Below are positions 5,028-42,861 of a DNA stretch of 43,038 nucleotides, piece after piece. Location of the stretch: positions 1 through 43,038 of the forward strand of contig JANBQS010000059.1 in NCBI GenBank assembly GCA_027577415.1, read 5' to 3'. Each line of letters starts with the position of its first letter. The stretch's first letter is position 1. A program made the position numbers and the translations under genes. The notes below the pieces were generated by a model. The model worked only from the letters and a program-made list of their open reading frames with translations. It had not been told where the DNA came from and ran no database searches. Source of the stretch: Coemansia sp. RSA 922 (taxonomy: Eukaryota > Kickxellomycota > Kickxellomycetes > Kickxellales > Kickxellaceae).

Positions 5028-5030
5028 GGT

Positions 5031-8647: not shown

Positions 8648-9001
8648 ATGTCTTCATCTGAATCGATTAGTGTTACAATCGAAAGTACTGGTAAAGTTTT
8701 AAGTTTTGACGAATCCATTTACAAAACACATGTCCGAACTGTATTCGAATCAGCATGCAATAATGCAGGTTTACCTATAGATGAATACGAAATAGGTGTG
8801 CACGTTAATGGACAGTTTAAGACATTTGAGCTTGATACCTATCTCGATATGGAGCTTGAGAGATTGGCAGGTTACATTAAAGAGCTGGGTGACGAGGATA
8901 ATACTGAAGAAACTATGAGCTTTATTCGCCATAAAAATCTCATCGTGCGTATGCTTAATGGTATTTTGGGCATCCAAGTTAAAACTGTCGTCGACCAATA
9001 A
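8648..9001 (+). CDS. Array protein A1, family A
   Basis: 117 residues, no recognised family. It opens with a short strand-like segment (SISVTIES), a second strand and then an amphipathic helix (HVRTVFESACNNAG), followed by DEYEIGVHVNGQFKTFELDTYLD. That core aligns with A2 and A3 through VxIE...helix...IGxxV. The C-terminal part (MELERLAGYIKELGDED...) is longer and more acidic than in its relatives. No signal peptide or membrane helix, so probably cytosolic or nuclear. It is the first of a run of plus-strand genes of the same size class after the GC-rich acyltransferase, and the shift to AT-rich codons is abrupt. Confidence 0.75.
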   Translation: MSSSESISVTIESTGKVLSFDESIYKTHVRTVFESACNNAGLPIDEYEIGVHVNGQFKTFELDTYLDMELERLAGYIKELGDEDNTEETMSFIRHKNLIVRMLNGILGIQVKTVVDQ

Positions 9002-9297
9002 ATAAATGTTGCTAGGATATAGTCAATTAGATTCTTTAATATATTTTTTTTTGCTGAATTGTCACACTTTTTTTTTCCAACGTGAGGTAAAAAAAATCAC
9101 GGCTTGTTTGAAAAGGTGCTTGACTGCTGTGCTCCAGTCAACGGCCACCCTTGGTTTGGAGACATCATGTGACTTGGCAAAGGAGAAAATAAAAAGAAGA
9201 AAAAAAGTGACATAGCCCGTTCACATTTTTCCGCTTATTCAACTCGCATATCTCATCAATATATATTTTTTTATATTTATTCATTTTCCGGTCTACT
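9002..9297 (+). promoter_or_regulatory. Intergenic/promoter of A2
   Basis: Carries CTTGACTGC (9119-9127) and CCAGTCAACGG (9134-9144), and an AT-rich ATATATATTTTTTTATAT run (about 9258-9275) close to the start codon. Confidence 0.5.
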
Positions 9298-9591
9298 ATG
9301 TGTTCAACATCCTATACTGTCCGTGTCACCATTGAGCATAACGAAGAGGTCAAGGACATGCCAGTTGCTTCACCACATGTGACCAAAGTAGCGAGCGTGA
9401 AAGAGGACGTGTGCGCATTATACGGAATAGATAAATCGATATGTAAGATTGGCATGTTTATAGGTAATTGCTATTATCCCTGCGACGAAGACCACTCTGT
9501 GGATTTCGAGCAAAACCAATTATTGAATTACTGGAATGCCGACAAATGGGGAGTGTTTCGCCTAGTCTTGCATATTAGCCCAATAGAATAG
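9298..9591 (+). CDS. Array protein A2, family A
   Basis: 97 residues, family unknown. Features shared with A3: an N-terminal strand (YTVRVTIEH), a helix starting at VTKVASVKEDVCALYG, then IGMFIGNCYYPCDEDHSVD, where the YPCxED signature is identical in A3 (FYPCSEDAIAD). It has four Cys residues in the middle but no zinc-finger spacing. No signal peptide. The ATG at 9298 is the first in frame and sits directly after an AT-rich leader. Confidence 0.75.
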   Translation: MCSTSYTVRVTIEHNEEVKDMPVASPHVTKVASVKEDVCALYGIDKSICKIGMFIGNCYYPCDEDHSVDFEQNQLLNYWNADKWGVFRLVLHISPIE

Positions 9592-10067
9592 ATCTGTGGT
9601 TTATTTTTATTAATAGAATTTATAATACAACTTGTCGATTAGAGAATAAGGAGGAAAAGCAGTGACGGTACAACTTGTCAAAAAAAATAATCCAAGTGCA
9701 GGGAGGGAAGATGATGTCGCTTGGCTTGATTGCTGATGCACTTGTGACAACAGGCACACAGGGAGGTATCACACGCTCAGTGCAAATGCTTTTCTTACAC
9801 CTTGTGCCCCCCATTTTTCATTGTTTGGCACATGTCTATGACTTGCGCCAAACAATTCTTACAAAATCCACATGCTTATGTTGACTGAAAAAAGGAACGG
9901 ATGGATAGGCATGCATTGTTTCTCCCACCCATTGCCTGGCTATAAAAATAGGGGGACAACTGCCCCACCCTCCTTTTTTTCTCTCCTCGTCTTTTTTTCT
10001 CCCATTGCTATTTATTTTTTCTCTACCACACTCCATAGTATTACTTTTTTTCCATCTCCAAACAGTT
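9592..10067 (+). promoter_or_regulatory. Promoter region of A3
   Basis: Shows GTTGACTGA (9880-9888), then TATAAAAATA (9941-9950) about 120 bp before the A3 ATG, followed by a C/T-rich leader. ORFs here are short, low in complexity and not credible. Confidence 0.55.
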
Positions 10068-10376
10068 ATGATAGTAGAGCAACCTGTAATTCATGTTCGG
10101 GTAGAAGGATTCAAGGGATTTATTAATATGAAGGATCTAGATATTAAAGTCGTATTTTTAGAGACAATTAAGAAAGATGCCTGTAAAGTAGTATCCAGGA
10201 AATCTGCTGACCATGATATTGGGGTAATAGTAGATGATGTATTTTATCCTTGCTCTGAAGATGCCATTGCAGATGGTGTGCGCAGAGTGGTAGCTGATTT
10301 ACCAGGACAAAATGACGTCCTTGCCAAGGAAATATTTGTGTTTGACATACGTCGCAAATCCACACCAAGTGCTTAA
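10068..10376 (+). CDS. Array protein A3, family A
   Basis: 102 residues from the ATG at 10068, chosen because the upstream in-frame extension is a T-rich leader and because it puts PVIHVRVEG at the same place as the first strand of A2. It keeps the family A pattern: strand, strand (FINMKDLDIKVV), helix (FLETIKKDACKVV), then DIGVIVDDVFYPCSEDA with the YPCxED signature, and a final strand (KEIFVFDIRRKS). No membrane or secretion signal; function unknown. Confidence 0.75.
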   Translation: MIVEQPVIHVRVEGFKGFINMKDLDIKVVFLETIKKDACKVVSRKSADHDIGVIVDDVFYPCSEDAIADGVRRVVADLPGQNDVLAKEIFVFDIRRKSTPSA

Positions 10377-11248
10377 GGAACTATACAAGTATCTGTTATA
10401 GGAGTCGTTTCCTTGTTGCTAGTCTCAATTCGTAAAAAAATAAATTGATTTCAAATTTGCACCTCTTGCATATACATTGTTTGCATTTACTTATTTTAAT
10501 AGTCATCCAACCTACTGTGAAACTTTCTAATTCGCATTGGCATGTATGTTGTAGAACAGAGCAAAAAAACAGATCAATGGCGCCAAGTATACGTGTTTAG
10601 TATAGCCTATGAACGGGCTTACGCTTGGCTGCTGCACATACCTTTATTGTTGCCTTTCTCCTCAGCCACAATCATGTGGCACCAAAAGTGCTGACATATT
10701 CTTGCCTTGATACTGTGCTTGTTTAAAAGTGCAGAAACATGATACTAATTTGAGTTAAACATAAAGTGGAGACAAGAAGCAAGGTCGCCAGCATTTTCTG
10801 CTCACTTCTGAACCCCTTGTAAATGTGCTTTCCTTTCTCCTTTTAGAGGGATGCTCTTTGTTTCTTTCACCACGCTCTGCTTTGAATGTTTCCTTTGACA
10901 GGCAGCTTGCAAGACATGAAAATAAATTGGTTGGATGCACCTATGACGTCATTGGCTTCTTTGAAATTTTCTTTACAGCCTTTTTTAGCTGCCTTTTTTT
11001 TCCTTTTTGCACTTTCCTTTGTTTGGTGGGGGGTGCAATTATTTTCTTGGAGAAGCACTATAGTGCTTGACTGCATGCTTGGTGCTCAATTCCTTGCTCA
11101 TTTTTTTGCTTGCCATCTCGTCTCTTACTGTTCAGCACATATAAAAGGAGCACTAGTTGCCCAGGCCCTTTTTTCTTTTCTCTCCATTATTTTACACCAT
11201 CACATATTCTGGCTCTTTCTTTTTGTCCAATTTACCACAATACCAAGG
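10377..11248 (+). promoter_or_regulatory. B1 upstream region with family B repeat and TATA box
   Basis: 872 bp. The first part (10377-10760) holds nothing recognised. 10764-10985 is a copy of the family B upstream repeat. Then come GCTTGACTGCATGCTTGG (11065-11082) and TTCAGCACATATAAAAGGAG (11131-11150) with the TATA box at 11140-11146, 103 bp before the B1 ATG. The TATA block is nearly identical to the one of B7 on the other strand at 41.52 kb. Confidence 0.65.
10764..10985 (+). repeat. Family B upstream repeat, copy 1
   Basis: About 220 bp, similar to copies upstream of B2 to B7. Landmarks in order on this strand: GTGGAGACAAGAAGCAAGG, a CTGAACCCCTTG block, TTTAGAGGGATGCTCTTTG, TTGACAGGCAGCTTGCAAG. 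Always in the same orientation relative to the downstream B gene. Confidence 0.75.
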
Positions 11249-11653
11249 ATGGGAGAAATTAAAGTTGCCGTACCTCAGGAAAATGCTATCTCATATTATT
11301 CTGCCAAATATCACACTCACCCAACTTGTCATGGAGAGTATTTTTGCATGGCTATTCACGAATACAGCAAATCTAATTTGACAGAAGAAATACAATATCA
11401 GTATAACAAGAGTATGTCCAATGGTAAAGGACCTATCAGGGACGATACTTTAATGGATTTGCAAGAACAATACTCTGTTTATATTTTATATTCTGAGGAC
11501 TTTATCAGCAGCTCCTATGTGAAGGTCGAGCTAACAGATACTGCTCTACTGGATGATGACAATCTGGTATGCGTCATTGTGGGCCTGAAAACTATTGATG
11601 AACGTATTGAAACCCATTGTCAGAATATACTTCAGCATGCCAATCCACAATGA
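11249..11653 (+). CDS. Array protein B1, family B
   Basis: 134 residues from the ATG at 11249. Family B signatures: an early HGEYFCMAIHEY (a helix in other members), SNGKGPIRDD, LQEQYSVYILY, and VCVIVGLK before a C-terminal helix. These recur in B2-B8 as [CH]GE.[FY]C.A...Y, [SG]NGK, YSVY.[LV] and V.VGLK. No signal peptide, no membrane helix, no catalytic motif. The longer upstream reading frame runs through the TATA box and is not coding. Function unknown. Confidence 0.8.
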   Translation: MGEIKVAVPQENAISYYSAKYHTHPTCHGEYFCMAIHEYSKSNLTEEIQYQYNKSMSNGKGPIRDDTLMDLQEQYSVYILYSEDFISSSYVKVELTDTALLDDDNLVCVIVGLKTIDERIETHCQNILQHANPQ

Positions 11654-12593: not shown

Positions 12594-13025
12594 ATGACCG
12601 TTGTTGCATTCTACGCACTTGGTGAGTACCAGTTTACAACCACAACTCTAGACATCAAGGAAGGGTCAAAGGGGCGTGCAGTGTATAAAGGGGTAGAATT
12701 ATACCGAGAGAAGGTATGTAGTATACACGAAGTTCTTGAGTACTCCGCAAGCACCCACTATAATGCCGATGCTGTTATGATTAATAGTGCAGAGAGTGTC
12801 GTAAACAGCTACTCTGTATATTTTGTTTATGAGAATACTGTTGATGGTAAATACTGTCACCAAATCGAGCCAGCTGACTCTAATGTAGGACACGAGTCCA
12901 TTTTTGTTTTGGTTGGCCTGAAAATATACGGGGTTGATGAGCATGTTAGTGAACTTGGGGAGGGGCTACGTGAGCAACTCATTAATGCTTATGCAAAATG
13001 GGAACAAGGAAATTGTATCAGCTGA
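12594..13025 (+). CDS. Array protein B2, family B
   Basis: 143 residues. Family B layout: N-terminal strands, a helix region (GVELYREKV...), then NSYSVYFVYEN and ESIFVLVGLK, followed by a C-terminal helix (VSELGEGLREQLINAYAKW). The C-terminal half is clearly homologous to B1 and B5; the N-terminal half is divergent and lacks the SNGK segment, having INSAESVV at that place. ATG at 12594 follows a short leader after the TATA-like box. Function unknown. Confidence 0.78.
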   Translation: MTVVAFYALGEYQFTTTTLDIKEGSKGRAVYKGVELYREKVCSIHEVLEYSASTHYNADAVMINSAESVVNSYSVYFVYENTVDGKYCHQIEPADSNVGHESIFVLVGLKIYGVDEHVSELGEGLREQLINAYAKWEQGNCIS

Positions 13026-14070: not shown

Positions 14071-14344
14071 CATGAATAGAATGAATTAGTGCATATCACT
14101 GTTCTGCTATTGCTATTATTCTCACATTTTTGGAAAGCGGAAGCATGTGAAATGCCGCCACCATAGATTTCCACTGACTGGAGCTACTTCCTGTGAGCTG
14201 CTTGCAAAGAAAATCAAACTGACTGGAAGTAAAAAGAGGTACATTGACGTCGTTTTTTTATAGTAATAACTGTAGAGAAAGTGTGCCAACTGAACACATT
14301 CCCACTATTATTATTGTTTTGAAGGTATTTTTTATTAATGGAGT
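14071..14344 (+). promoter_or_regulatory. Upstream region of truncated C2
   Basis: Shares GGAAGCATGTGA, GAGCTGC and AAAATCAA-CTGACTGG blocks with the C3 promoter (14.63-14.72 kb), so the promoter of C2 is still recognisable although the gene has lost its N-terminal half. Confidence 0.55.
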
Positions 14345-14536
14345 ATGGACTATTTCTTATTTTGCTACATGTTTAATGGTGAACCTATCTTTACAAACTT
14401 GGATAATAAGGATCTCATAACACTATACATTAGAGCAGTTTGGGGTACAACTTTGGTAGCTAATAATTGCCCAGAGAAAATGTACTTTATGGTCGCTATT
14501 GGTAATCCAGACAAGCTAGAGGCGTTGCAGGAGTAA
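14345..14536 (+). pseudogene. C2: family C remnant lacking the N-terminal half
   Basis: A 63-residue ORF that aligns with the second half of C3: FCYMFNGEPIFTNLDNKD with the third-strand region FTICVMGDEEKLYVYDSN, and NNCPEKMYFMVAI with DDCSRKMEIIVAI. The first strands and the helix are missing. The promoter side is conserved with C3, so an internal deletion at the 5' end is the simplest explanation. It may be transcribed, but the domain is incomplete. Confidence 0.65.
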
Positions 14537-16048: not shown

Positions 16049-16450
16049 GGCAATAGGTAGGGTTGGTGAAACGTTTAGCCAAGTAGAACAACAATGGTGC
16101 TAGGGGGCCATGGGCGTAGGCAAATGGCGAATCCTTTTTGTATTTTTTTCCTAATTGCAACCCCCAAACTAGTCGTGAAAGAATAATGTCAAAGCAGTTG
16201 GTTGGCAGTCATTGTCTGGTTGATTGCAAGAACATTTGGCCAGGAAACAGGAGAGACAGCAGTGACTGTGACAGAAAAATAGGGGAGAGGTTCTTGTGGA
16301 AAGAGAATGCCAGCTACCTTTTGAGTGCAAGAGACTCCCCTCAGAAATCTGCAGATACCAGCACTTCTCTCTCTTTTCCTTTTTATTTTTTTCCTGGCCA
16401 ATCAATACAAGTACTTGCCTATATAGCTATGAATTACTCATATTTTTGTA
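16049..16450 (+). promoter_or_regulatory. Region upstream of pseudogene C5
   Basis: 402 bp; ORFs here are spurious. Just before the pseudogene is CCTATATAGCTATGAATTAC (16419-16438), resembling the TATATAGCAAAGCTATTC segment before C4, so this is a leftover promoter. Confidence 0.5.
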
Positions 16451-16738
16451 GTCATTAACATAAGACCTTGTGTTGAACACCTAGTCATAGGTCAGTTTGA
16501 GTTTACAACAATGTGGTCAGAACTCAAGCCGGCAATAGCAAGGGAAATAATGTGAAACGAAAAGGCGTTGACTATGGTCTACAGGCACGCCGATAACCCT
16601 AGCTTGGCATCAGTCAATTTTCCACTGTCACAACTAGGATGTGATACAGAGCTCGATTACAGGCTAGCTACAGAAGAGTGTAAGAGAATGCTGGCAGTTA
16701 CTATTCGTGTAGATTCCAATGAATCGCTTGCTTTATAA
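16451..16738 (+). pseudogene. C5: inactivated family C gene
   Basis: One frame retains the family order: VIGQFEFTTMWSELKPAIAREIM, a TGA at 16553-16555, then NEKALTMVYRHADNPSL and finally EECKRMLAVTIRVD, ending in TAA at 16736-16738. The segments align with IGQFDMLTTTWSQLHTAIAEKMNW and the GGCTRLMEIIVNV signature of C4. The only nearby ATG (16429) is out of frame by one, so there is both a lost or shifted start and an in-frame nonsense codon. No intron boundary of credible size removes the TGA. Confidence 0.8.
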
Positions 16739-19154: not shown

Positions 19155-19183
19155 TCCATTATTTTTAACATTTAACGAGTAGT

Positions 19184-20806
19184 TTACAGTTTAGAAGTAT
19201 CAAATATATCTGCACGTAGCTGCCATATCCACATAGACAATGCAGGTTTCCTAGCTACATCAGCTCGCACAAGAACCAAGTCCTGACAATGATCAACGAC
19301 AGCCCGCTTGATACTCCATTTCTCTTCGACTAAGCGAGACCTCAGTTCAAACATGAGCTGGGGCAAGAGTTCCGCCGGCACAGCAGTCAGCAACTCGGCA
19401 GCGACCAACAGCAGCTCACGTCTTCTCACCGCGTAAATCTCCCCTCGCACACCACCACCACCGGTATAATGGTCGGCTCTACGAAGCAAAACGAGAGCTC
19501 GGTCCCAGGCCGCATGGCCAGGTATAGCGCGTACAGCAGCAGTATATGAGATACGTAGGAGGTCAGCGGAGATACCCTGGTCCGGATACATATCCAAGAC
19601 GAGGTCTGAGTACCATGGCGCAATCTCCACAGCGATATGGCGGATGTCTGATTCGAGAACAGCCAGAATCAATGCGTGCGCGGACTCGAACCACATGGGA
19701 CCTGGGTACACCAACACATCACTACCCACGTACCTCGCAGCCAGTGCCGCTAACCGGGATAGCAAAGGGGCAGAGAGTTTTGGTACCAAGTGTTCGAAGA
19801 AGTCAAGGTAGAACAAGACTACACCCGCCCTTACCATGCCCACATCACTCGGCGCGGATAACAGGCATGGCTGACAAGCAAACAACGCGTCCACATGCGA
19901 CCCGTCAGTGTAGCTGATAGCCAAGGAGCACGCAGAGCGGAATGGGTCGGGCGGCGAGTCACGTCCAAACTCGCGCAGTATGGAAGGATACAAGACAGCT
20001 AGCGAGTCAGTGACTACAGGCCACAGGTCGTCGAGCGAAGGGTCGCGGCTCCCTGAGAAGTACCGCTGGAGTATGCTCTCGAGGACACGCAGCATAGCCA
20101 GCGTACCCACAAAGCAATTGCCCAGCAGCAGCTGTGAGATTGCCCTGGCATGGACCACATAGACTACACGCCGAGCATCAGCAAAGGTTGTCGTCCGCGC
20201 GTGAATAATCTCAGTGAGCAGACCACAAGCCTTTTCGAGATCCAATACACCCGGCTCCCCAAACACAGCGCCAGCTAGTGCATTCAGTACTGCGCCGTCC
20301 CGCCCAGCCAGCAGCTCAGCGATTTTTCCGTATCCGAGCTGAGCTGCCACCTCGACACACACGCCAACCGCCTCGGGCGTTGTAGTGCAGGCCTTATGTG
20401 CCAGGTCGGCAAAGACTGGAACAGCGCGAGACGACACATTATTCAGCGCTACAGCCAAGCCGCCGACAAACGCCAAGGCAGGGACACATGCTTGGCCCCG
20501 AGTATCTTCTGCTGCGCGTAGCATCGCCTGCACTGCCAGAGTGTCTGACGCCGAGCTCGGCATGAGCCGGGTCGCTGCGCACTGGGCAGCGCTGTCAACG
20601 GTATTGCGCGGGATAAGCGCGTCCTGCTGCTGTGCGGCCAGCGCCCGTCGTACTCGCGTAGTACCAATGTACTGGCCTAAATGCATTACGGCATAAAGGG
20701 ACTCTGACGGCTGCCACTGCTCAAAAAGATCTCTGGCGACCTCGGCTACAATGTTGACAGCAGTGCCTGTGGCCAAGATGCGCGCACTAGCTCTGTACTC
20801 ATTCAT
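19184..20806 (-). CDS. PEX8: Pex8-like peroxisomal importomer protein
   Basis: 540 residues, helical and Ala/Leu-rich throughout, with no membrane segment, consistent with an ARM/HEAT-like repeat protein. The segment PGPMWFESAHALILAVLES...WYSDLVLDMYPDQGISADLLRISYTAAVRAI resembles my recollection of the C-terminal region of fungal Pex8. The protein ends in SKL (538-540), a canonical PTS1; a PTS1 on a repeat protein of this kind is characteristic of Pex8, the intraperoxisomal peroxin that links the docking and RING complexes of the import machinery. Codon use is GC-rich, unlike the flanking array genes. The CorA-type gene lies upstream on the same strand, 82 bp away. Alternative: another PTS1-bearing helical-repeat protein. 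Confidence 0.68.
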   Translation of the reverse strand: MNEYRASARILATGTAVNIVAEVARDLFEQWQPSESLYAVMHLGQYIGTTRVRRALAAQQQDALIPRNTVDSAAQCAATRLMPSSASDTLAVQAMLRAAEDTRGQACVPALAFVGGLAVALNNVSSRAVPVFADLAHKACTTTPEAVGVCVEVAAQLGYGKIAELLAGRDGAVLNALAGAVFGEPGVLDLEKACGLLTEIIHARTTTFADARRVVYVVHARAISQLLLGNCFVGTLAMLRVLESILQRYFSGSRDPSLDDLWPVVTDSLAVLYPSILREFGRDSPPDPFRSACSLAISYTDGSHVDALFACQPCLLSAPSDVGMVRAGVVLFYLDFFEHLVPKLSAPLLSRLAALAARYVGSDVLVYPGPMWFESAHALILAVLESDIRHIAVEIAPWYSDLVLDMYPDQGISADLLRISYTAAVRAIPGHAAWDRALVLLRRADHYTGGGGVRGEIYAVRRRELLLVAAELLTAVPAELLPQLMFELRSRLVEEKWSIKRAVVDHCQDLVLVRADVARKPALSMWIWQLRADIFDTSKL

Positions 20807-20888
20807 CAGCTAATAATACAAATATAAAATATAAAAGTTTGGAATTTACAAGAGAGAAGAAAGATAACAAAAATGCATGTGACAAGAA

Positions 20889-21971
20889 TCACACAAGCCG
20901 CTTGATGCGCGCATACACGACAGCCAAGAGAAAGGCGGCGACCAGGCAGCCCATGATGCCGAGCCAAGCGGTGTTAGTTTCGTTAATTCTTTTCTCCTTG
21001 TCGTGCTTCCAAGGCACGCCGATGTTCATTCCGAACAGCCCCGCCGCGTACTGCATTGGCAGCAGCACGGCCGCCAGCAGCAGCCAGCGGCTCGACACAG
21101 CCGCCAGCCGCTCCGACGCCCGGCTCTGCCCCACGGCCAACTGAGCCGCGTAGTGCGCATGGGCCCTGGCCAGCGCCGCCTCGCAGTGCGCACACGACGA
21201 CAGCAGGCCCTTGAGCCGCGAGCCGCCGCCCATCGCCTTTCTCTGCTGCAGCTCCCGCCACGCGCACAGCACCGAGCGGCGGGCGCTGCCAATGCGGCTC
21301 AGCATGGCGGCTCCCCCGCCCGTGTACGCGCCCAGCGACTGCTGCTCAATCGCCGACACCTCCGCCTCCACCGCCCGCAGCGCCTGCGCAGCCGCCTCCG
21401 TCGCAGAGTCGACCAGCGCCCAGATGACGTCGGCAATGCGCGAGTCGGACGTCAGCCGCCGCACCACGCCCGTCGCCACAGCGCCCATTGCGTAGTCGAC
21501 AGAGACAAGCGTCTGCCCGCTCATCACCGCTCTTACTCGCGCATACGTCAGCACTACACGCCCACGCTGATCCTCCAGCCCATCGCCCCCAGCGTCCTCG
21601 CAGAGTACCTCCACGGGCACCCTTACTGCTGCTGCCAGCTCCGAAACCTCCTCCGCTGTGGGGTCCGCTATGTGGACCCAGATCCAATCGCTCTTGGCAG
21701 TCAGTGCGTCTTGCACGCTGTCAGCACCTCGTAGTCCGGTGGGCGGCGAATAGGCCGTCAGTCGTCCCCAGTCAATGTTTTCGGAAATGTCAACTGACGC
21801 CAAAGCTCCAGTCAGCGAAACCTCTTCGAGCGCACTGCGGTCCCAGTCAACGCACTTACTGGGTTGACTGCCTACTAGCATGTTTGCTAATAGCTTTGCT
21901 ATAGCTTCATCATTTGTTAATGCCTTTCCAATAATTCTCTCTAAATAACTGACCAACGTTTGCTCTTCCAT
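20889..21971 (-). CDS. CorA-type divalent metal ion transporter
   Basis: 360 residues with the CorA plan: a cytosolic domain starting with WIWVHIADPTAEEVSEL (about 96-112) and VEVLCEDAGGDGLEDQRGR, a long helical stretch (about 180-295), then two membrane helices near the C-terminus (about 296-313 and 335-353) joined by a loop that begins FGMNIGVPW. The GMN triplet (314-316), at the end of the first helix, is the selectivity signature of this family, which carries Mg2+ (some members Zn2+ or Ni2+) as pentamers. The length fits; a mitochondrial (Mrs2/Lpe10) assignment is not supported because no targeting peptide is seen. GC-rich. Confidence 0.88.
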   Translation of the reverse strand: MEEQTLVSYLERIIGKALTNDEAIAKLLANMLVGSQPSKCVDWDRSALEEVSLTGALASVDISENIDWGRLTAYSPPTGLRGADSVQDALTAKSDWIWVHIADPTAEEVSELAAAVRVPVEVLCEDAGGDGLEDQRGRVVLTYARVRAVMSGQTLVSVDYAMGAVATGVVRRLTSDSRIADVIWALVDSATEAAAQALRAVEAEVSAIEQQSLGAYTGGGAAMLSRIGSARRSVLCAWRELQQRKAMGGGSRLKGLLSSCAHCEAALARAHAHYAAQLAVGQSRASERLAAVSSRWLLLAAVLLPMQYAAGLFGMNIGVPWKHDKEKRINETNTAWLGIMGCLVAAFLLAVVYARIKRLV

Positions 21972-22270: not shown

Positions 22271-22654
22271 ATGTCTTCTTTTGGCAGTGGTGCCGAAGCG
22301 TATATAGTCATTAATGACTATAAGAATAAAGGCACAAAACTAGCCAGGGCAAAATGCACACTACCAACTAACATATTTGTACTCAAGCAAATGGCTGAAA
22401 AGCTCCATATCCCATGCACTTTTTATGTCGCCGATAAGGAGTTGTTGGAAGTAGGAACTGATGGCGAAATAAATCTTAACCGATATAATCTAGTCAATAG
22501 TGAGGAATATCTACTATATGTTGATATTGGTACTGGTAATAATCTAGAGCCACCAGCTGGCTCCGAGATAGTTATGTTGGGCAGTACTGCTCTGAGGTTA
22601 ATAAAATCTCATGATTTGCGTCCTCATGTTATAAAATCTCTTTGGAAGTCTTAA
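22271..22654 (+). CDS. Array protein D1 (singleton)
   Basis: 127 residues from the ATG at 22271, which directly precedes a strand-like start (AEAYIVINDYK). Order: strand, basic strand (TKLARAKCTL), helix (FVLKQMAEKLHI), strand (CTFYVADKELLEV), acidic/Asn loop, strand (EYLLYVDIG), then a tail with PPAGSEIVMLG and a basic C-terminus. It has the size, position and apparent fold order of families A, C and E but no shared sequence signature, so I keep it as a separate member. No secretion or membrane signals. Confidence 0.72.
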   Translation: MSSFGSGAEAYIVINDYKNKGTKLARAKCTLPTNIFVLKQMAEKLHIPCTFYVADKELLEVGTDGEINLNRYNLVNSEEYLLYVDIGTGNNLEPPAGSEIVMLGSTALRLIKSHDLRPHVIKSLWKS

Positions 22655-28919: not shown

Positions 28920-29240
28920 ATGACCGCGACTAAAGACAGAGTTCCTGGTGTGGCTTACAATGTCAAGGTTAGATGCCGCTTTGTTAGTGGCTCGGAGAGG
29001 AGGAAAATTGAGGGCATAGAATATGTCCAAGAGGGTGGTGAAACTGTCGCTAAGTTCATAGGAAAAGCTGTGAACAGAAGTGAAAATTGTTCGTGGAATT
29101 TGTTTGATACAGTTAAAAGCGTTCACTTAACAAAGGCTGATTGTGTTAAGGGATATAATCCCATCACAGGAAATATCATCCCTGATCAGGCCACGGAGAA
29201 AGATGGAGATGTACCTATTCTTTACTTGCTGGTTAATTAG
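28920..29240 (+). CDS. Array protein E4, family E
   Basis: 106 residues from the ATG at 28920, aligned with the E2 start (MTATNERVFGV against MTATKDRVPGV). EGIEYVQEGGETVAKFIGKA, SENCSWNLFDTVKSVHLTKADC and VKGYNPITGNI carry the family marks; the last strand is VPILYLLVN. The near-identical first residues and promoter show that E2 and E4 derive from recent duplication. Function unknown. Confidence 0.82.
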   Translation: MTATKDRVPGVAYNVKVRCRFVSGSERRKIEGIEYVQEGGETVAKFIGKAVNRSENCSWNLFDTVKSVHLTKADCVKGYNPITGNIIPDQATEKDGDVPILYLLVN

Positions 29241-30292: not shown

Positions 30293-30930
30293 TATTCCCA
30301 ATTTTAAAAAGGAAATCTAAAGAAAAGCAAGAAAGCATCATGTTGTATTTCTTCATTTAAAAAAACTGGTAAAGGTTGCCTCCCTCGTCCTTTTTTCCCC
30401 AGTAAACTGGAAAAAAAAAGAACAAACTGAGAATGCTATTTGTCAGCACCAAAAAGCGGAAGAATTTATTTTTGTACTTTTTTTTTTCTACCCAACCGAA
30501 AGCATACAAAGCACTCATGCAGTTTTTTCAAAGAAAGTCGGCGAACACGGATGCGAAACAGAGCTCGAGTGCGCCTTTTCTTCTCCAACAAAGGCAAGCA
30601 CTTCCTTTGGGGCGCTCTTCTCCAAAAGGAAATTGTACAATGAATGACGTGATTGTGCTTATTGTGAAACAACCAAAGGAAACAAACATCATTTGTACGT
30701 CATTTTCTACTACTTTATGACATATTTGACACGTATTCTTTTCCCTACAAAAAAGATAGGCTAGCTCTCAGTCAACGGGTTAAGATTGTTTTTTTTTTTT
30801 CGTAAGCAGGAGCTTGAAAATAATTCCTTCAGTCGATAGGGAAGCCCAACTATAAAAATAAGAATGCACTGGAGGCAGGAATAATTTGTTTCTTCATTTC
30901 ATTCCAAAATATTCTTGACAATTTAACAAT

Positions 30931-31245
30931 ATGCTAGCAACGAATACAGTGACGGCAGTTCAAGTTTCATTCTGTGTTGTTGACAAGCAAAGACAGAGAA
31001 CAATATCTACCTGCATATCTTGGGTTTCTCCGAAGGGAAATGTAGGTCAAAATTTAAAAGAAGCGTTAGAAAAAGAAAGAGAGACATACAAGTTCACAAT
31101 TGACAAGGAGACAAAATTGTTCTATTGTGAGGATGATTGTATTAGCAAGAACAACCCTATAGGTGCAGAATTCGATCTCTCCAAACCCAAGGACCCAGAA
31201 CTAGGTAGATATATTATATATGCTGAGGGAGAAATAGCTGACTGA
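30931..31245 (+). CDS. Array protein E5, family E
   Basis: 104 residues: strand VQVSFCVVDK, strand ISTCISWVSPK, helix NLKEALEKERETYKF, strand ETKLFYCEDDC, signature CISKNNPIGAEF, final strand RYIIYAEGEI. Sister of E1 in both protein (VSPK, PIxxxF) and promoter. The last plus-strand gene of the array, converging on the multicopper oxidase. Its promoter carries an LTR insertion, so its expression may differ from E1. Confidence 0.8.
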   Translation: MLATNTVTAVQVSFCVVDKQRQRTISTCISWVSPKGNVGQNLKEALEKERETYKFTIDKETKLFYCEDDCISKNNPIGAEFDLSKPKDPELGRYIIYAEGEIAD

Positions 31246-31409: not shown

Positions 31410-33044
31410 CTAGTTTGGTACAGGAGGTAATCCAGTAAGGTTGAATCCCAAGTTTCCGGCGCCATTCCCCGATGTAACAATCCCCTGTCTCTGGCACATA
31501 TCGATAAGCGCTTGTGGAATAGCCTGTTCCCTTTGCAGGACATCGGGAGCCTCCACAAACAAGACGGCCAAGCCCATGGCAAAATGTACATCCATATGAC
31601 AATGGAACATCCACACACCGGGATTATCGGCACAGAAACGGACCTTTGCATAATGAAACGCAGGGACAACAAATGTATCACGACGCATCGGCCACTCTGA
31701 AAAAGTTCTTACTGGAATAGGTGGTGCTTCAGGATCGGCCGGAATTCCAGAGGGTCCGTACTCGATAACCTGGAATGCATGGCCATGTAGGTGCATAGCG
31801 TGATCGAGAATAGTCGGGTTATGTACGATAATTTCAACTACTTCGCCGAGTCGCAATACGTGCGCGCGTGTCTGCGGACCGTATACCGTACTGTTTAGTG
31901 CGAGGTCTCCCATAGTAAACGCCGAGAAGAGCGGAGGAACTAGTGGCGGCTGGAACGGAATATCGTCGAGAATAGCCAACGTTATGTTGTTGGAATATTT
32001 CTTGCTACTAATCGTCCATTCAAACGTCCTGTCCACCGACAGTACTGGTTCCCTGTCCAATGCCTTAAGTATTATGTCGTCGGACCATACGAATAGGCGG
32101 TCGTCGGTCTGCGCAAATGTCTTTACGGGTGCACCTGCCTTGTACTCGATAAGGCCTTGGTAGTAACGCGGATTCATACCGGGAATGAACGGCACAAAAT
32201 TGGCATACAGCGTGGCATTATACTGGTAATTGTACAGGTCAGTGTCCCGTGCTGTGACTACCGCCGAGTAACGCTGCCCTGGACCCAAATCCAAACCGTC
32301 GACGCTATGTGGCACCGAGTCTATGCCGTCCGCCTCGATGATCTGGAGCTGGTGACCGGGCAGACTGAACTTGAACCACTCGGTAGACGACATATTGATC
32401 ACACGCAAACGGTACTTTTTCCCCGGTACAAACGTAATCGGCGTAGTTTCGTTACCATTAATTCCGTTAATCAGACCATAGGGAAAGGAGGGCGGCGGTG
32501 GGAAGGGGACAAGCGGGTTGAGTACTTCCTCCATGCGAACTTTAAACTCGTTCACGTACCACTCCTCTAGCGAAATAAGCATATCTTCATCGTAGTCCAG
32601 GACTGCTGGCTCTGTATCGTAAACAACTAGTGGCGTGCGCAGACCGTCGACATTCTGGTGATTGTAGTGGCCGTGAATCCAAAACGTGCCTGCTTGGTCC
32701 GCGTTAATTTCGTATGTGAAATTATCGCCTGGTGGTATCCCGCATTGCGTGATTAGGCCTGCACCGTCCATGTAGCTAGTGCCCTTCTGGAATAACCCGT
32801 GAGCGTGAATCGATGTCGGCACATCTAGCGAATTGTGTACGTTGATAACTAGTATGTCGCCTTTGGTCGCGTATACTGGTGGGAATGGCAATTGACCGTT
32901 GACGCCTATTGCGCGACGAGTTGTGTATCCGTCGCGATTGACATTCAAATATCCAATGTCCCAGTCATGAACTACACGCGCCGCTTGGCCAAGTAGCAAG
33001 GTGGCAGCGGCTACTAAAGTAAAGCCCAGCAGTGCTCGATACAT
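31410..33044 (-). CDS. Secreted multicopper oxidase (Fet3/laccase-like)
   Basis: 544 residues from the ATG at 33044, which opens a signal peptide (1-22, ending LLLGQAA). Upstream in-frame Met codons lie beyond the TATA box and are rejected. Three cupredoxin domains; all four copper motifs are present: HAHG (80-83), HGHYNHQ (124-130), HLHGHAFQ (418-425) and HCHMDVH (481-487). The type 1 axial position looks like Leu491 or thereabouts (HFAMGL). PMRRDTFVVP (452-461) and EEWY (160-163, near the acidic residue used for iron in Fet3) point to the Fet3/ascomycete MCO side rather than basidiomycete laccase, but there is no C-terminal membrane helix, so it would be a soluble secreted ferroxidase or phenol oxidase. 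Several N-x-S/T glycosylation sites. Confidence 0.88.
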   Translation of the reverse strand: MYRALLGFTLVAAATLLLGQAARVVHDWDIGYLNVNRDGYTTRRAIGVNGQLPFPPVYATKGDILVINVHNSLDVPTSIHAHGLFQKGTSYMDGAGLITQCGIPPGDNFTYEINADQAGTFWIHGHYNHQNVDGLRTPLVVYDTEPAVLDYDEDMLISLEEWYVNEFKVRMEEVLNPLVPFPPPPSFPYGLINGINGNETTPITFVPGKKYRLRVINMSSTEWFKFSLPGHQLQIIEADGIDSVPHSVDGLDLGPGQRYSAVVTARDTDLYNYQYNATLYANFVPFIPGMNPRYYQGLIEYKAGAPVKTFAQTDDRLFVWSDDIILKALDREPVLSVDRTFEWTISSKKYSNNITLAILDDIPFQPPLVPPLFSAFTMGDLALNSTVYGPQTRAHVLRLGEVVEIIVHNPTILDHAMHLHGHAFQVIEYGPSGIPADPEAPPIPVRTFSEWPMRRDTFVVPAFHYAKVRFCADNPGVWMFHCHMDVHFAMGLAVLFVEAPDVLQREQAIPQALIDMCQRQGIVTSGNGAGNLGFNLTGLPPVPN

Positions 33045-33552
33045 TATAGAGCGACGAATGAAGAGATGTGATAAAGTAATGGCGACTTGTATGGAATATT
33101 TTATGAGAGATGATGAACGGGGTTTCAGGCATTTGTATTTATATAGGGAGGAATGCCTCCCCGACCCGTCGTACCCAAGAGTAAATACATTCTTGGCTTT
33201 AGATAACATCTTGGTATGTCACAAGGCGTCGTCTGAGCGATAGAAGAAAAAGAAGAAAAACAAAGACAATTGTCAAAAAATCATGGCTTGCAGGGAGCTA
33301 TTTTTTTTCTCTCACTACGCTCGCAAGACAACTACTATATATAAAAAAGAGAACACATGCAAAATACATCTTGGCATTGTCCGCCACACTTGGTCACAAT
33401 GTATTTCTTGGCTCTTTAAAAAGTTGATTTATTCGACTAAATTCCCCACAAGCATAATTCAACCTTGTAATAATAGACTAGTGTTCAATAGAACAGAATA
33501 CCTTTTTGGTTGCTTACTTTATAATCTATTTATGTACTTGATATTTTTCCTT
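33045..33552 (-). promoter_or_regulatory. Multicopper oxidase promoter and catalase 3' flank
   Basis: 508 bp. On the minus strand a TATATAAA box (33138-33145) lies about 95 bp before the oxidase ATG. The rest, up to the catalase stop, is AT-rich with no gene seen. Confidence 0.6.
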
Positions 33553-35073
33553 TTATAGTCCAGATTTGTGCTCTTTCAAGAACGTCTCTACACGAGACCC
33601 AAACTCACTGTCGATACGCTTGAGATGTGGCAAGATATTACGCTGGAAAGCGGGCTTTGCCTGAGCGATACTTCCAGCTATATTGTCGACCAGGTCTTGC
33701 TGCTCCTTGGCATCAAGCAAACGATACAAGGCGCGCGGCTGATCAAAGTCCTCGTCAGTCAGCTTGTAGCTGTGACGACCAATAATACCCTCAACCGATG
33801 ACTTTGTATCGATCTCACGCGTTTCATGTGCCTCTTGTGGTCCGCCAAACGAATTGGGCTCGTAGTTGGGCAGACGTCCGCCATTAGTGCCGAAACACAT
33901 GGGTCCGTCGCGCTGCTGGTTCCTCACACTGTCCTGGGGACTGTTAATAGGCAGCTGGAGATAGTTGGCGCCCAGACGGTGGCGGTGAGTATCAGGGTAG
34001 CTGAACAGCCGGCCCTGAAGCATGCGGTCAGGAGAGGGCGCAATACCTGGAACCATGTGGGAGGGCGAAAACGCGGCTTGCTCGACCTCGGCAAAGTAGT
34101 TCTCGGGGTTGCGATCCAATACCATACGGCCGACCTCGTGTAGCGGGAAGTCCTTCTGGCTGACGACCTTGGTGACATCAAACGGATTGTACTTGAACTT
34201 CATCGCATCCTCCTCGGTAAAGATCTGGATAGAAACGGTCCATGATGGGTGGTCGCCACGCTCGATCGCCTCGAATAGGTCCTGGGTTGCATAGTCGGGA
34301 TTGGTGCCAGTTAACTCGGCGGCCTTCTGCGCAGTCAAATTCTTGATCCCTTGGTCAGTGCGGAAGTGCCACTTGACGTAGTGGAAGGACCCGTCTGCCT
34401 TGACTAGCTTTAGCGTGTGGCTCGAGTACCCGTGCATGTGGCGGAACCCGTCGGGCGTACCGCGATTGGAGAACAGAATCATGACCTGATGCAGGGCCTC
34501 GGGCACATGCGACCAAAAATCCCACTGCATATCGGGGTTCTTCAAATGAGTCCTAGGGTCGCGCTTCTGAGTATGAATAAAGTCGGGGAACTTGAGTGGG
34601 TCGCGGATAAAGAATATAGGCGTGTTATTGCCGACCATATCCCAGTTGCCCTCCTCAGTATAAAACTTGATAGCAAAGCCGCGCGGGTCGCGTGCAGTGT
34701 CTGGCGACCCCGATTCGCCGCCAACAGTAGAAAAGCGCGCGAAAATGGGCGTGCGCTTACCGACCTCGCTTAGGAATTTGGCGCAAGTAAGGTGGCTAAT
34801 GTCCTTGGTTACCTCAAAGTATCCGTGTGCGCCGGCACCCTTGGCATGGACTACGCGTTCAGGGATACGCTCGCGGTCGAAGCGTGCTAGTTTGTCAATA
34901 TGATGAAAATCTTGCACCAATACGGGTCCATAGTACCCGGCTGTCTGCGACGTCTGGTTACTCGGCACGGGGTTGCCAGAGCCGGTCGTCAATGTGCCCA
35001 AGTTGCCGTTGAGTGGTAGGTCAGTCGACGTGGCGGCCGTGGGGTTGGCCTTGTTGGTGGTAGGCGGAATCAT
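33553..35073 (-). CDS. Monofunctional haem catalase
   Basis: 506 residues from the ATG at 35073, a typical small-subunit catalase (2 H2O2 to O2 and water). Visible are the active-site His in [15 protein letters not shown] (about 76), the Asn in [11 protein letters not shown] (about 149), the proximal haem Tyr in [14 protein letters not shown] (about 359), and the [13 protein letters not shown] and [10 protein letters not shown] segments. An N-terminal extension of about 45 Ser/Thr/Asn/Pro-rich residues precedes the core and is not a convincing mitochondrial presequence. The C-terminus is HKSGL: SGL lacks the basic residue of a canonical PTS1, so peroxisomal targeting is possible but weak. GC-rich core-gene codon use. 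Same strand as the multicopper oxidase, 508 bp upstream of it. Confidence 0.95.
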
Positions 35074-35838: not shown

Positions 35839-36240
35839 CTACTGGAATCTGATACCTTCGCTTTTCATGAGAGCAAGGACTTTCCTGCAGTATGCTTTAG
35901 GATCATTTTTATATTCTTTCTCGATATCGTTTCTCAAGCCCACAATGACACACAGAGGGTTAAAACCCACAGGATCACTGCGTAGACTCATAATCTCACC
36001 AGTAAGCTCACCAGACCCATTGTAAACACAAATAACAATATATTCCTTTACAAGTTCCCCAGCCCTATCCATCTTTGTAGAGACATATGAAAGGGGCACC
36101 TTCTTATTTTCTATGTCCTCCCTGTATTTGTTTACAGCCTGGAAGACACAATCAGTCATGGAATTATGACAAGGAGAATCATGATCTTGTGAAAACTGGT
36201 AACCGTCGTTCTTAAACATAGCAATTGTAGTCGTGGACAT
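35839..36240 (-). CDS. Array protein B3, family B
   Basis: 133 residues from the ATG at 36240. Divergent member: the C-terminal core EYIVICVYNGSGEL...FNPLCVIVGLRN keeps the family strands (VxVY, C-V-I-V-G-L) and the C-terminal helix (KAYCRKVLALMKSEG), but SNGK is replaced by STKMDRAGE and YSVY by YIVI. A helix region VFQAVNKYREDI occupies the place of YFCxAIxxY. Intracellular; function unknown. Confidence 0.77.
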   Translation of the reverse strand: MSTTTIAMFKNDGYQFSQDHDSPCHNSMTDCVFQAVNKYREDIENKKVPLSYVSTKMDRAGELVKEYIVICVYNGSGELTGEIMSLRSDPVGFNPLCVIVGLRNDIEKEYKNDPKAYCRKVLALMKSEGIRFQ

Positions 36241-37161: not shown

Positions 37162-37578
37162 TTACTCCTCAACTCCATGCTCTTCTATTTCCATAAACCT
37201 TGCAATTGTCTTTTCCTTATACATATCAATTTTTTCATTGACCTCTTTCAAGCCCACCATGACACATGTTGGATTGCCATCCACACTATCATTAGTAATC
37301 CCTATATACTGATGAGTGTTGGTACCGGCATTATCATATAATAGAAAAACAGAGTATTTCTCTTCCAGCTCTTCAATATCATATTCCCTGGCTGGTTCTT
37401 TACCATTGGAGCTACCCCGTTCATACTGAAGTTCTCTGATAGTATTCAAAAAATGGTTGTCGTACAGAGAGACTGCTTTGCAAAAATACTCTCCTTGACA
37501 AACCAGGGGAGTGCCAACATTGACAGTTATCATTTTTGCATCCTCATTTTTAAGTGCGGAGACATAAATACGTCCCAT
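37162..37578 (-). CDS. Array protein B4, family B
   Basis: 138 residues. All signatures present: CQGEYFCKAVSLY, SSNGKEPARE, LEEKYSVFLLYD, PTCVMVGLKEVNE, then a C-terminal helix (YKEKTIARFMEIEEHG). Most similar to B1 at 11.2 kb, which lies on the other strand 26 kb away: GEYFC, SNGK and YSV blocks are nearly superimposable. This ties the two ends of the array together. Intracellular; function unknown. Confidence 0.82.
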   Translation of the reverse strand: MGRIYVSALKNEDAKMITVNVGTPLVCQGEYFCKAVSLYDNHFLNTIRELQYERGSSNGKEPAREYDIEELEEKYSVFLLYDNAGTNTHQYIGITNDSVDGNPTCVMVGLKEVNEKIDMYKEKTIARFMEIEEHGVEE

Positions 37579-38541: not shown

Positions 38542-38967
38542 TCAATTATTAGCATTTCCATTGAGATCTGCAAATACCTTTGCGCAATAAGCATCAATAG
38601 ATGTGTTGTCATCTTTCAAGCCCACAAATACAAACGTAGGCTCTTGCCCTTGCTTAACAAGTGTGTCGGATGGTGTAATTTCTACAGGAACAAGTATGTT
38701 GTTTTCTTGGTTTACAAAATATACAGAGTATAGTTCTTGTAATCCCTTCACAACAGTGTCATCCCTAGCGGACTCTTTGCCTTTGCTGGTACCCGTGACA
38801 AACTGAGGTGATATTCTCCCTTTCAACGTGCTGCTGGTGTTGTATTTTTCAACGGCTAGATAAATATACTCTCCATAATTTACTGGTATGGTGTACACAG
38901 CGGCATTAACGTATTCAAAGTCGTCCTCGTCAAATGCAACAATAGTGATATCTACTTTCTCTGACAT
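38542..38967 (-). CDS. Array protein B5, family B
   Basis: 141 residues: strands KVDITIVAFDED and FEYVNAAVYTI, helix NYGEYIYLAVEKYN, the TSKGKESARDD segment (in place of SNGK), LQELYSVYFVNQEN, PTFVFVGLKDD and a final helix (IDAYCAKVFADLNG). A canonical family B protein; its YSVYFV..FVxVGLK half is closest to B2. The strand-strand-helix-strands order supports the same general fold proposed for the other families. Function unknown. Confidence 0.82.
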   Translation of the reverse strand: MSEKVDITIVAFDEDDFEYVNAAVYTIPVNYGEYIYLAVEKYNTSSTLKGRISPQFVTGTSKGKESARDDTVVKGLQELYSVYFVNQENNILVPVEITPSDTLVKQGQEPTFVFVGLKDDNTSIDAYCAKVFADLNGNANN

Positions 38968-39941: not shown

Positions 39942-40337
39942 TCATTTTCTATTGGGTAAAGTGAGCCTATCATAGACACTTTCTTCACCAGCTTTAACAT
40001 ATTTCTGAACCTCTTCCTTCAAGCCCACCAGGACATAGCATGGACCCTCCACTATAGGTGTTTCAGTTAGCTTGACTTCTTCACAAGTGATATCAAAATC
40101 CCTAATGAGATAAACCGAGTATTTATTTTCATACTCTTCTAAATCACAATTCATATTTCTACCTTTACCATTACCAGAGCTACGGTTGAATTGAAGTTGA
40201 GTCATATTTGTCTCAAATCTTTCCCTATATATGTTGATTGCATCACAAAAAGCCTCTCCATGCACTAATCTCTCATATTCAATTTCCTTACGCACGTATG
40301 TAACTTTCTTATCCTTGTAGCAAGCAGCTAGAATCAT
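39942..40337 (-). CDS. Array protein B6, family B
   Basis: 131 residues from the ATG at 40337; the longer open frame upstream runs through promoter sequence. Signatures: VHGEAFCDAINIYRERF, SSGNGKGRN, YENKYSVYLIRD, GPCYVLVGLKEEVQ. Near the start is KVTYVRKEIEYE (strand). Closest to B1 and B4 by the GE.FC.A and [SG]NGK blocks. No signal peptide or membrane helix. Confidence 0.8.
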   Translation of the reverse strand: MILAACYKDKKVTYVRKEIEYERLVHGEAFCDAINIYRERFETNMTQLQFNRSSGNGKGRNMNCDLEEYENKYSVYLIRDFDITCEEVKLTETPIVEGPCYVLVGLKEEVQKYVKAGEESVYDRLTLPNRK

Positions 40338-40738: not shown

Positions 40739-40965
40739 AGAGGATGGCCTGTCAACACTAGAACCAGAACTGGCATACACACATCCCTTTCTTGACAGTG
40801 TCCGCCTCTTTCCTCCTCTCATGTCTCTTGTCAAGACAATGTCTCTAAGCTCCAGGTTATATATTGTTAAACTATGTCAGCAACTTGATGCAGTACCAAA
40901 ACTCCAGAACAGCCAGAAACTCTATTGTTGAAATAAACTACTATGCAACTCTAAATCATGGACTA

Positions 40966-41072
40966 TCGTGAGAATGTGTCTGCACCACAATGTTTGAGCC
41001 TCCTTGTGAGGTAATGTTCTACTTACGGCCATATGTAACGAATGGCAACTGGGAAACTACGATACTACCAGT
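40966..41072. repeat. 3' flank of B7, direct repeat of the B8 3' flank (42343-42450)
   Basis: The two flanks share ACCACAATGTTT, CCATATGTAAC-AATGGCAACT and AAACTACGATACTACCAGTT with few differences, defining a tandem duplication unit of about 1.38 kb that contains one gene and its promoter. Confidence 0.85.
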
Positions 41073-41435
41073 TTAAAACGGTATGTCACCATTCATTTGT
41101 TGAACATCTATAAGGCGGTCGCATAAATTGACATTATGAGTGGCGACATATCCATCAACAATATTCTTCGGTCCCACCAAGACATACACAGGGTCACGAT
41201 CTACATTAGTGGCATTTAGAGAAATTTTCTCATAACGAGTGTTATATACAAAATAAACAGAGTATGCAATATTAGGGATCACGCTGCCAGCAGGATATTT
41301 TGCCTTTTCGTATATATCCACTGCTAAGTTATAAATAGGTACCATATCGTGTAGCCTCAAGTTAAAGGTCTGTAGATTAAATAGAACCTTATCCCCCATG
41401 TGCGGAACAATTGTGGCTTCGTCCTTCGATGGCAT
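41073..41435 (-). CDS. Array protein B7, family B
   Basis: 120 residues. The N-terminal half is divergent (KVLFNLQTFNLRLHDMVPIYN), and the SNGK segment is absent; the C-terminal half has IAYSVYFVYNTRYEKI, DPVYVLVGPKNIVDGYVATHN and a final helix (NLCDRLIDVQQM). VGPK replaces the usual VGLK. It is the sister of B8: VDGYVATHNVNLC against VDEYVATHKDNLC, and the 3' flanks of the two genes are nearly identical. Confidence 0.8.
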   Translation of the reverse strand: MPSKDEATIVPHMGDKVLFNLQTFNLRLHDMVPIYNLAVDIYEKAKYPAGSVIPNIAYSVYFVYNTRYEKISLNATNVDRDPVYVLVGPKNIVDGYVATHNVNLCDRLIDVQQMNGDIPF

Positions 41436-42450
41436 TTGGAGTAAATCTTGGCTAATGAGAATGGTAGTATAGAATGGTGTGGAGAAATGGAGTGAGAAAA
41501 ATTCTGGCTGCTCAACACTCCTTTTATATGTGCTGAGCAGTTAGGAACAAGATATTTCAGGGAAGGGAGGCAAGAAAGAAAATGTGTGCCAAGCACGCAT
41601 TCTAGCAGAAATGTGCTCCTCACAGTCAAGCCAACAAACAGGCGTTTCTTTTTTCTTTTTCACATTCAACAGTGTGCCAATAAATGGATATGTATATCAA
41701 GACATCTTACTAAAAAGAAGAAATTCAATAAAAGAAATGACATTAGTAAATCCGAATATTGTATTTTCTATCATTCAGTACATTCTGTCAAAGAATCGGA
41801 AAAGAACTAAACCAGAAGGCACACAAACATGTGTTTCTTATTAGTTTTTTTTGTTTAAGCCTTTCAATTTTCTTGTCGACAAAAAGAAAGAAAAGGAAAG
41901 AAAGCCAGACAGAAAAATAAGTAAAGGCAAAGGAAACAAAAGAGCTTCCCCAAAAAATAAGAGGATGCTAGAGAGCATTTGTGGAAAGGGGTTCAGACAA
42001 AAGCAAGAAAAGCAAGCATCCATGCTTCTTGCTTCTTGTTTTCATTCTTTTGGTGGGTAGGCAACAGGGGAAAGCCTGTCCATATTAGCATCAGCACAGG
42101 CAAATTCCACACCCTTGACAATGTTTGCTTTTTTTCCTCCTTTGCAAATTGTTTAAGCCTTGTTTCTCAGCTCCTAGGTGAAGTTTAAAGCTAATTCCTA
42201 TTTGACTATAATCATGTTAGCTAATGGTATAAATATATATTATAAAAACCCAAGTGGTCAACTTGAAGCAGCGCCAATGCAGCAAACAGCCAAAAAACAA
42301 TATAGTTAAAGCGAACTGACAAGTGGTACGATAGCTTTGAATATCATGAGAACATGTCCATACCACAATGTTTACGTCGCCTTGTGTAGCAATGTGCTAC
42401 TTACAGCCATATGTAACAAATGGCAACTAGAAAACTACGATACTACCAGT
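41436..42450 (-). promoter_or_regulatory. B7 upstream region
   Basis: Core promoter GCTCAGCACATATAAAAGGAG on the minus strand (TATA complement 41522-41528, 87 bp before the ATG), GTGCCAAGCACGCATTC (41586-41602) and CAGTCAAG (41623-41630). Family B repeat at 41851-42050. 42340-42450 is the duplicated 3' flank of B8. Confidence 0.65.
41851..42050 (-). repeat. Family B upstream repeat, copy 7
   Basis: GCTTCCCCAAAAAATAAGAG, GGATGCTAGAGAGCATTTG, GGGGTTCAGACAAAAGCAAG and GCTTCTTGTTTTCATTC in the expected order. Confidence 0.7.
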
Positions 42451-42861
42451 TTAAAACCACATGTTATTAGCTCTTTGTTTAACTTTTATAAGGTGGTTGC
42501 ATAAATTGTCTTTATGAGTAGCGACATATTCATCAACAATATCCTTCAAGCCAAACAATAAATACACAGTGTTACTATCTACCACAGAGACACTAGGTAC
42601 CTCAGTGTCATCAGCTACCACAGTGCCACTAGTACCCTTAGTGTCACCAGCTACCACCTTGTAATTAGCTATCATAGTGGCATTTGGCAAAAATACCTTG
42701 ACTTTATCGGCATATACAAAAAAAAGAGAGTATGCATCCGCTTCTTTCTTGTAATCTACCAACATATTTTTCAATAATGCGTCCATAGTATAATTCTCCA
42801 AATCAACTGTATGATATGCAATCATTTTTCCTATGTGATATGCAATTGTGGGGTATCCCAT
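42451..42861 (-). CDS. Array protein B8, family B, with in-frame repeat insertion
   Basis: 136 residues. Sister of B7: ADAYSLFFVYADKV, TVYLLFGLKDIVDEYVATHKDNLCNHLIKVKQ. Between these blocks it has an insertion of about 25-30 residues built from two 12-residue repeats (VVAGDTKGTSGT and VVADDTEVPSVS), coded by a 36-bp tandem duplication. YSVY becomes YSLF and VGLK becomes FGLK. Promoter: CAACACTTCTTTTATG (minus-strand CATAAAAG, about 42959-42966) with GCTGCCC at 42944-42950. Its upstream repeat would lie outside the window. Confidence 0.78.
   Translation of the reverse strand: MGYPTIAYHIGKMIAYHTVDLENYTMDALLKNMLVDYKKEADAYSLFFVYADKVKVFLPNATMIANYKVVAGDTKGTSGTVVADDTEVPSVSVVDSNTVYLLFGLKDIVDEYVATHKDNLCNHLIKVKQRANNMWF
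42581..42652. repeat. 36-bp in-frame tandem duplication in B8
   Basis: Two units, 42581-42616 and 42617-42652, each starting ACCACAG and ending TCA(T/C)CAGCT. A third partial match (ACCACCTTG...) follows. The length is a multiple of three, so the frame is kept. Confidence 0.85.

Follow-up and report, generated by a model that had tools for sequence, protein, structure and literature searches.

We analysed a stretch of 43,038 nucleotides from the fungus Coemansia sp. RSA 922 (contig JANBQS010000059.1; hereafter the window), which is an entire contig (C59) of a genome of 20.4 Mb in 960 contigs. Around four core genes it carries a cluster of 24 intact small open reading frames (ORFs) of 88–143 codons, made up of three genes of family A, eight of family B, six of family C, five of family E and the singletons D1 and D2. 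Our comparison of two copies of the region showed many changed codons in frames that stay open, and in family E the coding sequences appear to have moved between sites. It is quite possible, though short of probable, that the genes encode unconjugated binding proteins of the ubiquitin fold, and that cassette exchange has diversified them in the course of an intracellular conflict of the self/nonself or anti-parasite kind.

A second copy of window positions 10.3–39.9 kb was found on contig C157. Identity is mostly 92–93% (main blocks 89–95%), and the four core genes stand in the same order. These genes, all on the reverse strand, were used for comparison: a 540-aa gene conserved in Coemansia (19184–20806), a CorA-like Mg2+ transporter (20889–21971), a multicopper oxidase (31410–33209) and a catalase (33553–35073). 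We treated C59 and C157, and contig pairs like them, as two haplotypes, although the same picture would arise from a mixed culture or from unlike nuclei. A segmental duplication is less likely, because the left flank of the window has a 93% copy on contig C245 and the contig pairs C9/C115 and C109/C15 show the same pairing behaviour. The second haplotype is incompletely assembled, since the acyltransferase gene at 6323–8386 is present as a single copy in the genome.

On C157, 15 of the 24 genes have a partner with an uninterrupted frame (C6 being the shorter of its pair). B2 and E2 have no copy there, C5 has a stop on C157, and A1–A3 and B6–B8 fall beyond the C157 span or at its edge. Of the 17 comparable pairs, 15 have no break in either member and two have a stop on one side. 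In the 15 intact pairs we counted 8 insertion or deletion (indel) events per 5265 aligned bases of coding sequence (CDS), 6 of them in C6, versus 121 per 8648 bases of flanking sequence (p-value = 1.6 × 10−16). Substitutions numbered 387 in the coding sequences (7.4%) and 602 in the flanks (7.0%). The pooled differences at the three codon positions were 134, 122 and 142; in the core genes the third position dominates (20/10/54, 5/6/20, 23/6/50 and 12/10/54). When the same substitutions were placed neutrally in a simulation, 12.0 stops were expected, with breaks in 7.3 of the 15 genes (3 genes at the 1% point); the simulated pairs had been preselected for intactness, and a one-sided stop occurs in two further pairs. 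The indel, substitution and simulation results therefore indicate that the frame is maintained, with the protein changing at close to the pace of non-coding DNA. This is most naturally read as diversifying selection.

Pooled nonsynonymous and synonymous differences were about 290:108 in the cluster versus 95:175 in the core genes (odds ratio 4.9, p-value = 3 × 10−22; sums made by hand). The ratio of nonsynonymous to synonymous rates (dN/dS) between haplotypes was 0.11–0.28 for the core genes. For the cluster genes it rests on small counts, with no single gene tested against 1, and was 1.12, 1.17, 0.40 and 0.36 for B1, B3, B4 and B5; 0.05, 0.11, 0.35 and 1.07 for C2, C3, C4 and C6; 0.70 and 0.62 for D1 and D2; and 1.83, 0.24, 1.04 and 1.32 for E1, E3, E4 and E5 (E1 versus its duplicate, 0.49). 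C1 has three nonsynonymous differences and no synonymous one.

The nearly flat codon-position pattern would also be expected under relaxed constraint, in which a lineage-specific family is drifting and dying while recent duplication and gene conversion keep its frames open. Broken copies point the same way: besides the C5 allele, there are two in the window and a broken family B copy on contig C206. However, indels are suppressed in the coding sequences, and only two of 17 pairs have a one-sided stop where the simulation has about half of the genes broken. Paralogue pairs of family E with dS > 0.75 give dN/dS of 0.37–0.61, so that over longer times purifying selection is at work, and the profile of family C is still recognisable at 19–53% identity to C3. 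We consider relaxed constraint rather unlikely.

The families themselves are real. In a leave-one-out analysis, each member and its known C157 copy were removed from the member's own profile, which was then run against a few hundred sequences (for C1, all C157 sequences were taken out, and five remained). All 22 members of families A, B, C and E were found again with E-values of 3 × 10−4 or better: 8/8 in family B (9.5 × 10−10 or better), 6/6 in C (6.9 × 10−10 or better), 5/5 in E (3.7 × 10−12 or better) and 3/3 in A (3 × 10−4 to 1.5 × 10−7). Family membership is beyond chance. Among the subset of genome contigs compared, D1 and D2 matched their own C157 copies alone. Comparison by profile did not join any families significantly; the link between A and C looked stronger over the first 60 shuffles (0/60) than over 1000 (13/1000), and a few shuffles reached outlier scores above 130.

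The first-pass annotation, which was made from the DNA alone, had listed these families together with 24 intact and two broken genes, and all 24 ORFs were found at or very near the places given there. Its signatures hold in part: C[ILV]x4[PA]I occurs in all five E proteins, WN[LI]F in three of five, YPCxED in two of three A proteins, the C motif in four of six C proteins, and YSVY-like and VGLK-like patterns each in seven of eight B proteins. Families A, C and E, the singletons D1 and D2, and also B1 and B2 are on the forward strand, and B3–B8 are on the reverse strand. Family A is loose and comprises A1 (8648–9001, 117 aa, the member found again at 3 × 10−4), A2 (9298–9591, 97 aa) and A3 (10068–10376, 102 aa), all supported by ORF, alignment and the leave-one-out analysis. 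Family B comprises B1 (11249–11653, 134 aa, whose C157 allele is just 61.7% identical), B2 (12594–13025, 143 aa), B3 (35839–36240, 133 aa, allele 79%), B4 (37162–37578, 138 aa), B5 (38542–38967, 141 aa), B6 (39942–40337, 131 aa), B7 (41073–41435, 120 aa) and the divergent B8 (42451–42861, 136 aa, found again at 9.5 × 10−10).

Family C comprises C1 (13726–14070, 114 aa), C2 (14896–15210, 104 aa), C3 (15737–16048, 103 aa), C4 (17079–17498, 139 aa, with an insertion, found again at 6.9 × 10−10), C5 (17868–18194, 108 aa) and C6 (18888–19154, 88 aa, allele 56%, with a shorter N-terminus than the 103-aa C157 copy). Both broken copies were borne out and belong to this family: a remnant of the C-terminal part at 14339–14533 (forward strand, profile E = 0.0016) and a copy with one in-frame stop at 16433–16735 (forward strand), of which the second haplotype carries an intact copy. 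The singletons are D1 (22271–22654, 127 aa, allele 77%) and D2 (23390–23722, 110 aa, allele 90%). If B1 and D1 begin at the internal ATG matching relatives (11249 and 22271), both genes fall short of their longest ORFs. T/C-rich leaders, in which the frame is open before the likely start, were seen at 10886–11248 and upstream of B6, B3 and D1; in the B1 leader an upstream ATG would add a hydrophobic N-terminal stretch, which is probably untranslated.

Elsewhere in the genome, family B occurs on contigs C206 and C120, and family E on C9, C15, C109 and C115. Queries with C3 and C5 found family C on C59 and C157 only, and A2 as a genome query matched only itself at a threshold of E = 0.05. The broken B copy on C206 (9201–9773; L041, 2201–2773) consists of two same-frame pieces split by a stop and adjoins two intact B genes. 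The same contig carries a gene for a 964-aa protein (2392–5286; L047) whose partner on C281 is 90% identical; a further pair lies on C100 and C381 at 87–88%, so that there seems to be an older duplication beside a B locus. Small single-exon ORFs with no Pfam match on contigs with E or B loci (L044, 2485–2850, reverse; L043, 8127–8447, forward; L049, 1352–1834, reverse) are possibly further D-type singletons.

The first-pass annotation recognised no known family in the cluster. By sequence this agrees with our searches, but by fold it does not. Structure models were made for one protein per family, C3 and B4. The C3 model is a ubiquitin fold and the B4 model is a beta-grasp with additional helices; both show a beta-hairpin, a helix and then more strands, with a single sheet that packs against the helix. 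Families C and B, which hold 14 of the 24 genes, are accordingly predicted to have the ubiquitin-like/beta-grasp fold, and the same may hold for E, A, D1 and D2. The nearest structural matches of family B were DIX, RA/RBD, PB1 and UBL domains, together with staphylococcal Eap/SSL beta-grasp domains. Ubiquitin, SUMO, ISG15 and ubiquitin-like domains appeared among the structural matches at 6–15% sequence identity. Unlike ubiquitin, SUMO and ISG15, the cluster genes are tandem and hypervariable, and their proteins have no Pfam match above cut-off and no diglycine near the end. Because GG is absent from the last eight residues of all 24 proteins, they are unlikely to be conjugated as ubiquitin is.

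None of the 24 proteins reached a curated Pfam cut-off; the lowest E-value was 0.0096, for B1 with PF21278 (16.4 bits, cut-off 27). We searched 5.8 billion proteins by a word-based method with the profiles of families B and E, and found no match among 249 word-sharing candidates for B at E = 0.01 and none among 337 for E at E = 1. Coemansia proteins are present in this collection: among the matches listed there were 24 relatives of the 540-aa core protein, all named as Coemansia, Linderina or Martensiomyces, and its top relative is from Coemansia sp. S17 (93%), followed by other Coemansia, Linderina and Martensiomyces. Either the ORFs of B and E are unannotated in related genomes, or the families are lineage-restricted, or too few words are shared. 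Sequences in the PDB gave no convincing match (E profile mostly thermonuclease at E = 0.06 or worse, B profile 0.16 at best, C profile none). The best NCBIfam match of family C had E = 0.13, and the viral fold library gave nothing convincing for family B (best E = 0.12). Among the literature matches listed, no title or abstract opening describes these genes.

The predicted fold raises the question of effectors, that is, stand-alone relatives or look-alikes of the Crinkler (CRN) ubiquitin-like header that are exported without a classical signal and act on other organisms. PMC5289972 describes CRN headers as predicted ubiquitin-like and without true signal peptides. The cluster genes resemble them in predicted fold, in the lack of a classical signal peptide and in conflict-type diversification, and they are small, diversifying and clustered. 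However, the L[FY]LAK or HVLV[VI]VP pattern was found in none of the 24 proteins (atypical CRN headers without a motif are reported in the same paper), and Crinkler was absent from their Pfam matches up to E = 5, where weak matches are mostly filtered out. A genome search with PF20147 gave no match, but its controls matched nowhere either, so that it does not establish absence. The cluster proteins are single-domain; Pfam detects no C-terminal toxin or NTPase domain, and 88–143 aa leave no room for a toxin domain. Kickxellales are mostly saprotrophic according to PMC10386755. We regard the effector explanation as unlikely.

Family E comprises E1 (24615–24926, 103 aa, duplicated on C157), E2 (25970–26290, 106 aa), E3 (27448–27795, 115 aa), E4 (28920–29240, 106 aa) and E5 (30931–31245, 104 aa). 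A block of about 535 bp (24026–24560, forward strand) precedes E1, and a second long copy in the window (30356–30905, forward strand) precedes E5. The seven other long copies are 81–92% identical to the one before E1. Despite these similar upstream blocks, E proteins are down to 19–25% identical to E3. The block was found at no fewer than 13 places in the genome, including itself, and because all of them lie upstream of E genes, reading it as a dispersed repeat is unsupported.

At the allelic site on contigs C9 and C115, identity in 100-bp bins is 87–95% upstream, 68–78% over the coding sequence and 88–97% downstream. The C9 coding sequence is E3-like (85% protein identity, dS 0.12–0.17 to both E3 alleles) and that of C115 is E4-like (86% and 80%, dS 0.10–0.12). 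The E3-like block on C9 runs from −47 to +472 (informative sites 30:135 inside, 207:19 and 150:13 outside), and the E4-like block on C115 from −60 to +360 (17:131 inside, 255:18 and 183:14 outside). In each of five trios, no permutation among 2000 was as extreme, with sites treated as independent; in the three trios other than these two the block reached the end of the compared stretch or its edge faded near it. Ectopic gene conversion, or other exchange of a coding cassette of about 0.4–0.5 kb, explains these sequence patterns best, and the test covers family E. In another allelic comparison, two E genes (one E1-like and another) at 30.7–32.6 kb of C109 stand against one at 53.4 kb of C15, a difference in copy number.

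The C9/C115 site has also to be considered in terms of toxin–antidote, killer or allele-specific incompatibility pairs, with one site bearing idiomorph-like alternatives. Its flanks are about 91% identical and its coding sequences are of different paralogue type (dS 0.90), so that strongly divergent alternatives occupy one site, as expected of het genes, within the two haplotypes compared. Pseudo-allelic incompatibility genes at one locus are known in Podospora, where het-B is an example (PMC10890737). However, the folds of the Podospora proteins are different. No toxin domain was found, strict gene pairing is absent, and the evidence comes from two haplotypes, so we judge this explanation quite unlikely. 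A further explanation is that the proteins are ordinary scaffolds of signalling, or modifiers, which serve development or stress and whose genes multiplied for dosage or niche without any conflict. It would suit the beta-grasp, which is common in scaffolds (PB1, DIX, RA and FERM are among the structural matches), and the conservation of C2 and C3 between haplotypes, but presence/absence between haplotypes together with cassette exchange would be unusual for scaffold genes, and this explanation is very unlikely.

Our preferred reading, recognition by unconjugated ubiquitin-fold proteins, can be put as follows. The genes would encode a set of small proteins, each of a single domain and apparently cytosolic; a crude hydropathy scan agrees with the earlier claim of no membrane helix (maximum 19-residue mean 1.22 over the 24 proteins). 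Because the conjugation tail is lacking, the proteins most likely bind non-covalently, as decoys or as partners in recognition, in a mode like that of ubiquitin-like, PB1, RA and DIX domains. They would diversify by tandem duplication, loss and amino-acid change with the frame kept, and in family E by swapping coding cassettes among sites that have upstream regions in common. Their most likely role would be recognition in an intracellular conflict, either in telling self from nonself among fused cells or nuclei, or in warding off viruses, mobile elements or bacteria; the two are put together here because sequence cannot separate them. The first-pass annotation had suggested a lineage-specific expansion of the kind seen in genes under conflict or niche selection. 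Hypervariable alleles, presence/absence, the kept frame and cassette exchange in E strengthen this suggestion, which is partly supported overall. Its caution that function cannot be read from the sequence largely still applies. The data show the gene content, the constraint on the coding sequences, the hypervariability between haplotypes and the mosaic make-up of E; the fold of C and B is predicted, and the cytosolic location, the way of binding and the part played in conflict are what we infer.

A repeat-rich ORF with GQPW-type tandem units was seen at 4151–5240 of the window, with a second array of this repeat at 5081–5238; the ORF's RCR match is weak and below cut-off.

The Sp185/333 genes of the sea urchin (PMC3091723 and PMC5103432) are likewise small, clustered and diverse, and their diversification is of the recombination type, but they encode unrelated proteins and belong to animal immunity.

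Hypervariable recognition gene families are, to our knowledge, little known among fungi outside Dikarya. Gene catalogues may be missing families of this kind, because B and E found no relative in a collection that holds Coemansia proteins. It is doubtful, but conceivable, that the cluster is an undescribed recognition system of an early-diverging fungus, in which ubiquitin-fold cassettes are recombined between sites with shared upstream regions to give a nucleus-specific self/nonself repertoire or a parasite-catching one. If the role that their evolution suggests for these genes is real, the ubiquitin fold would be the basis of a cassette-exchanging repertoire, and the cluster would make nonself recognition or antiparasite defence accessible to testing in Kickxellomycota.

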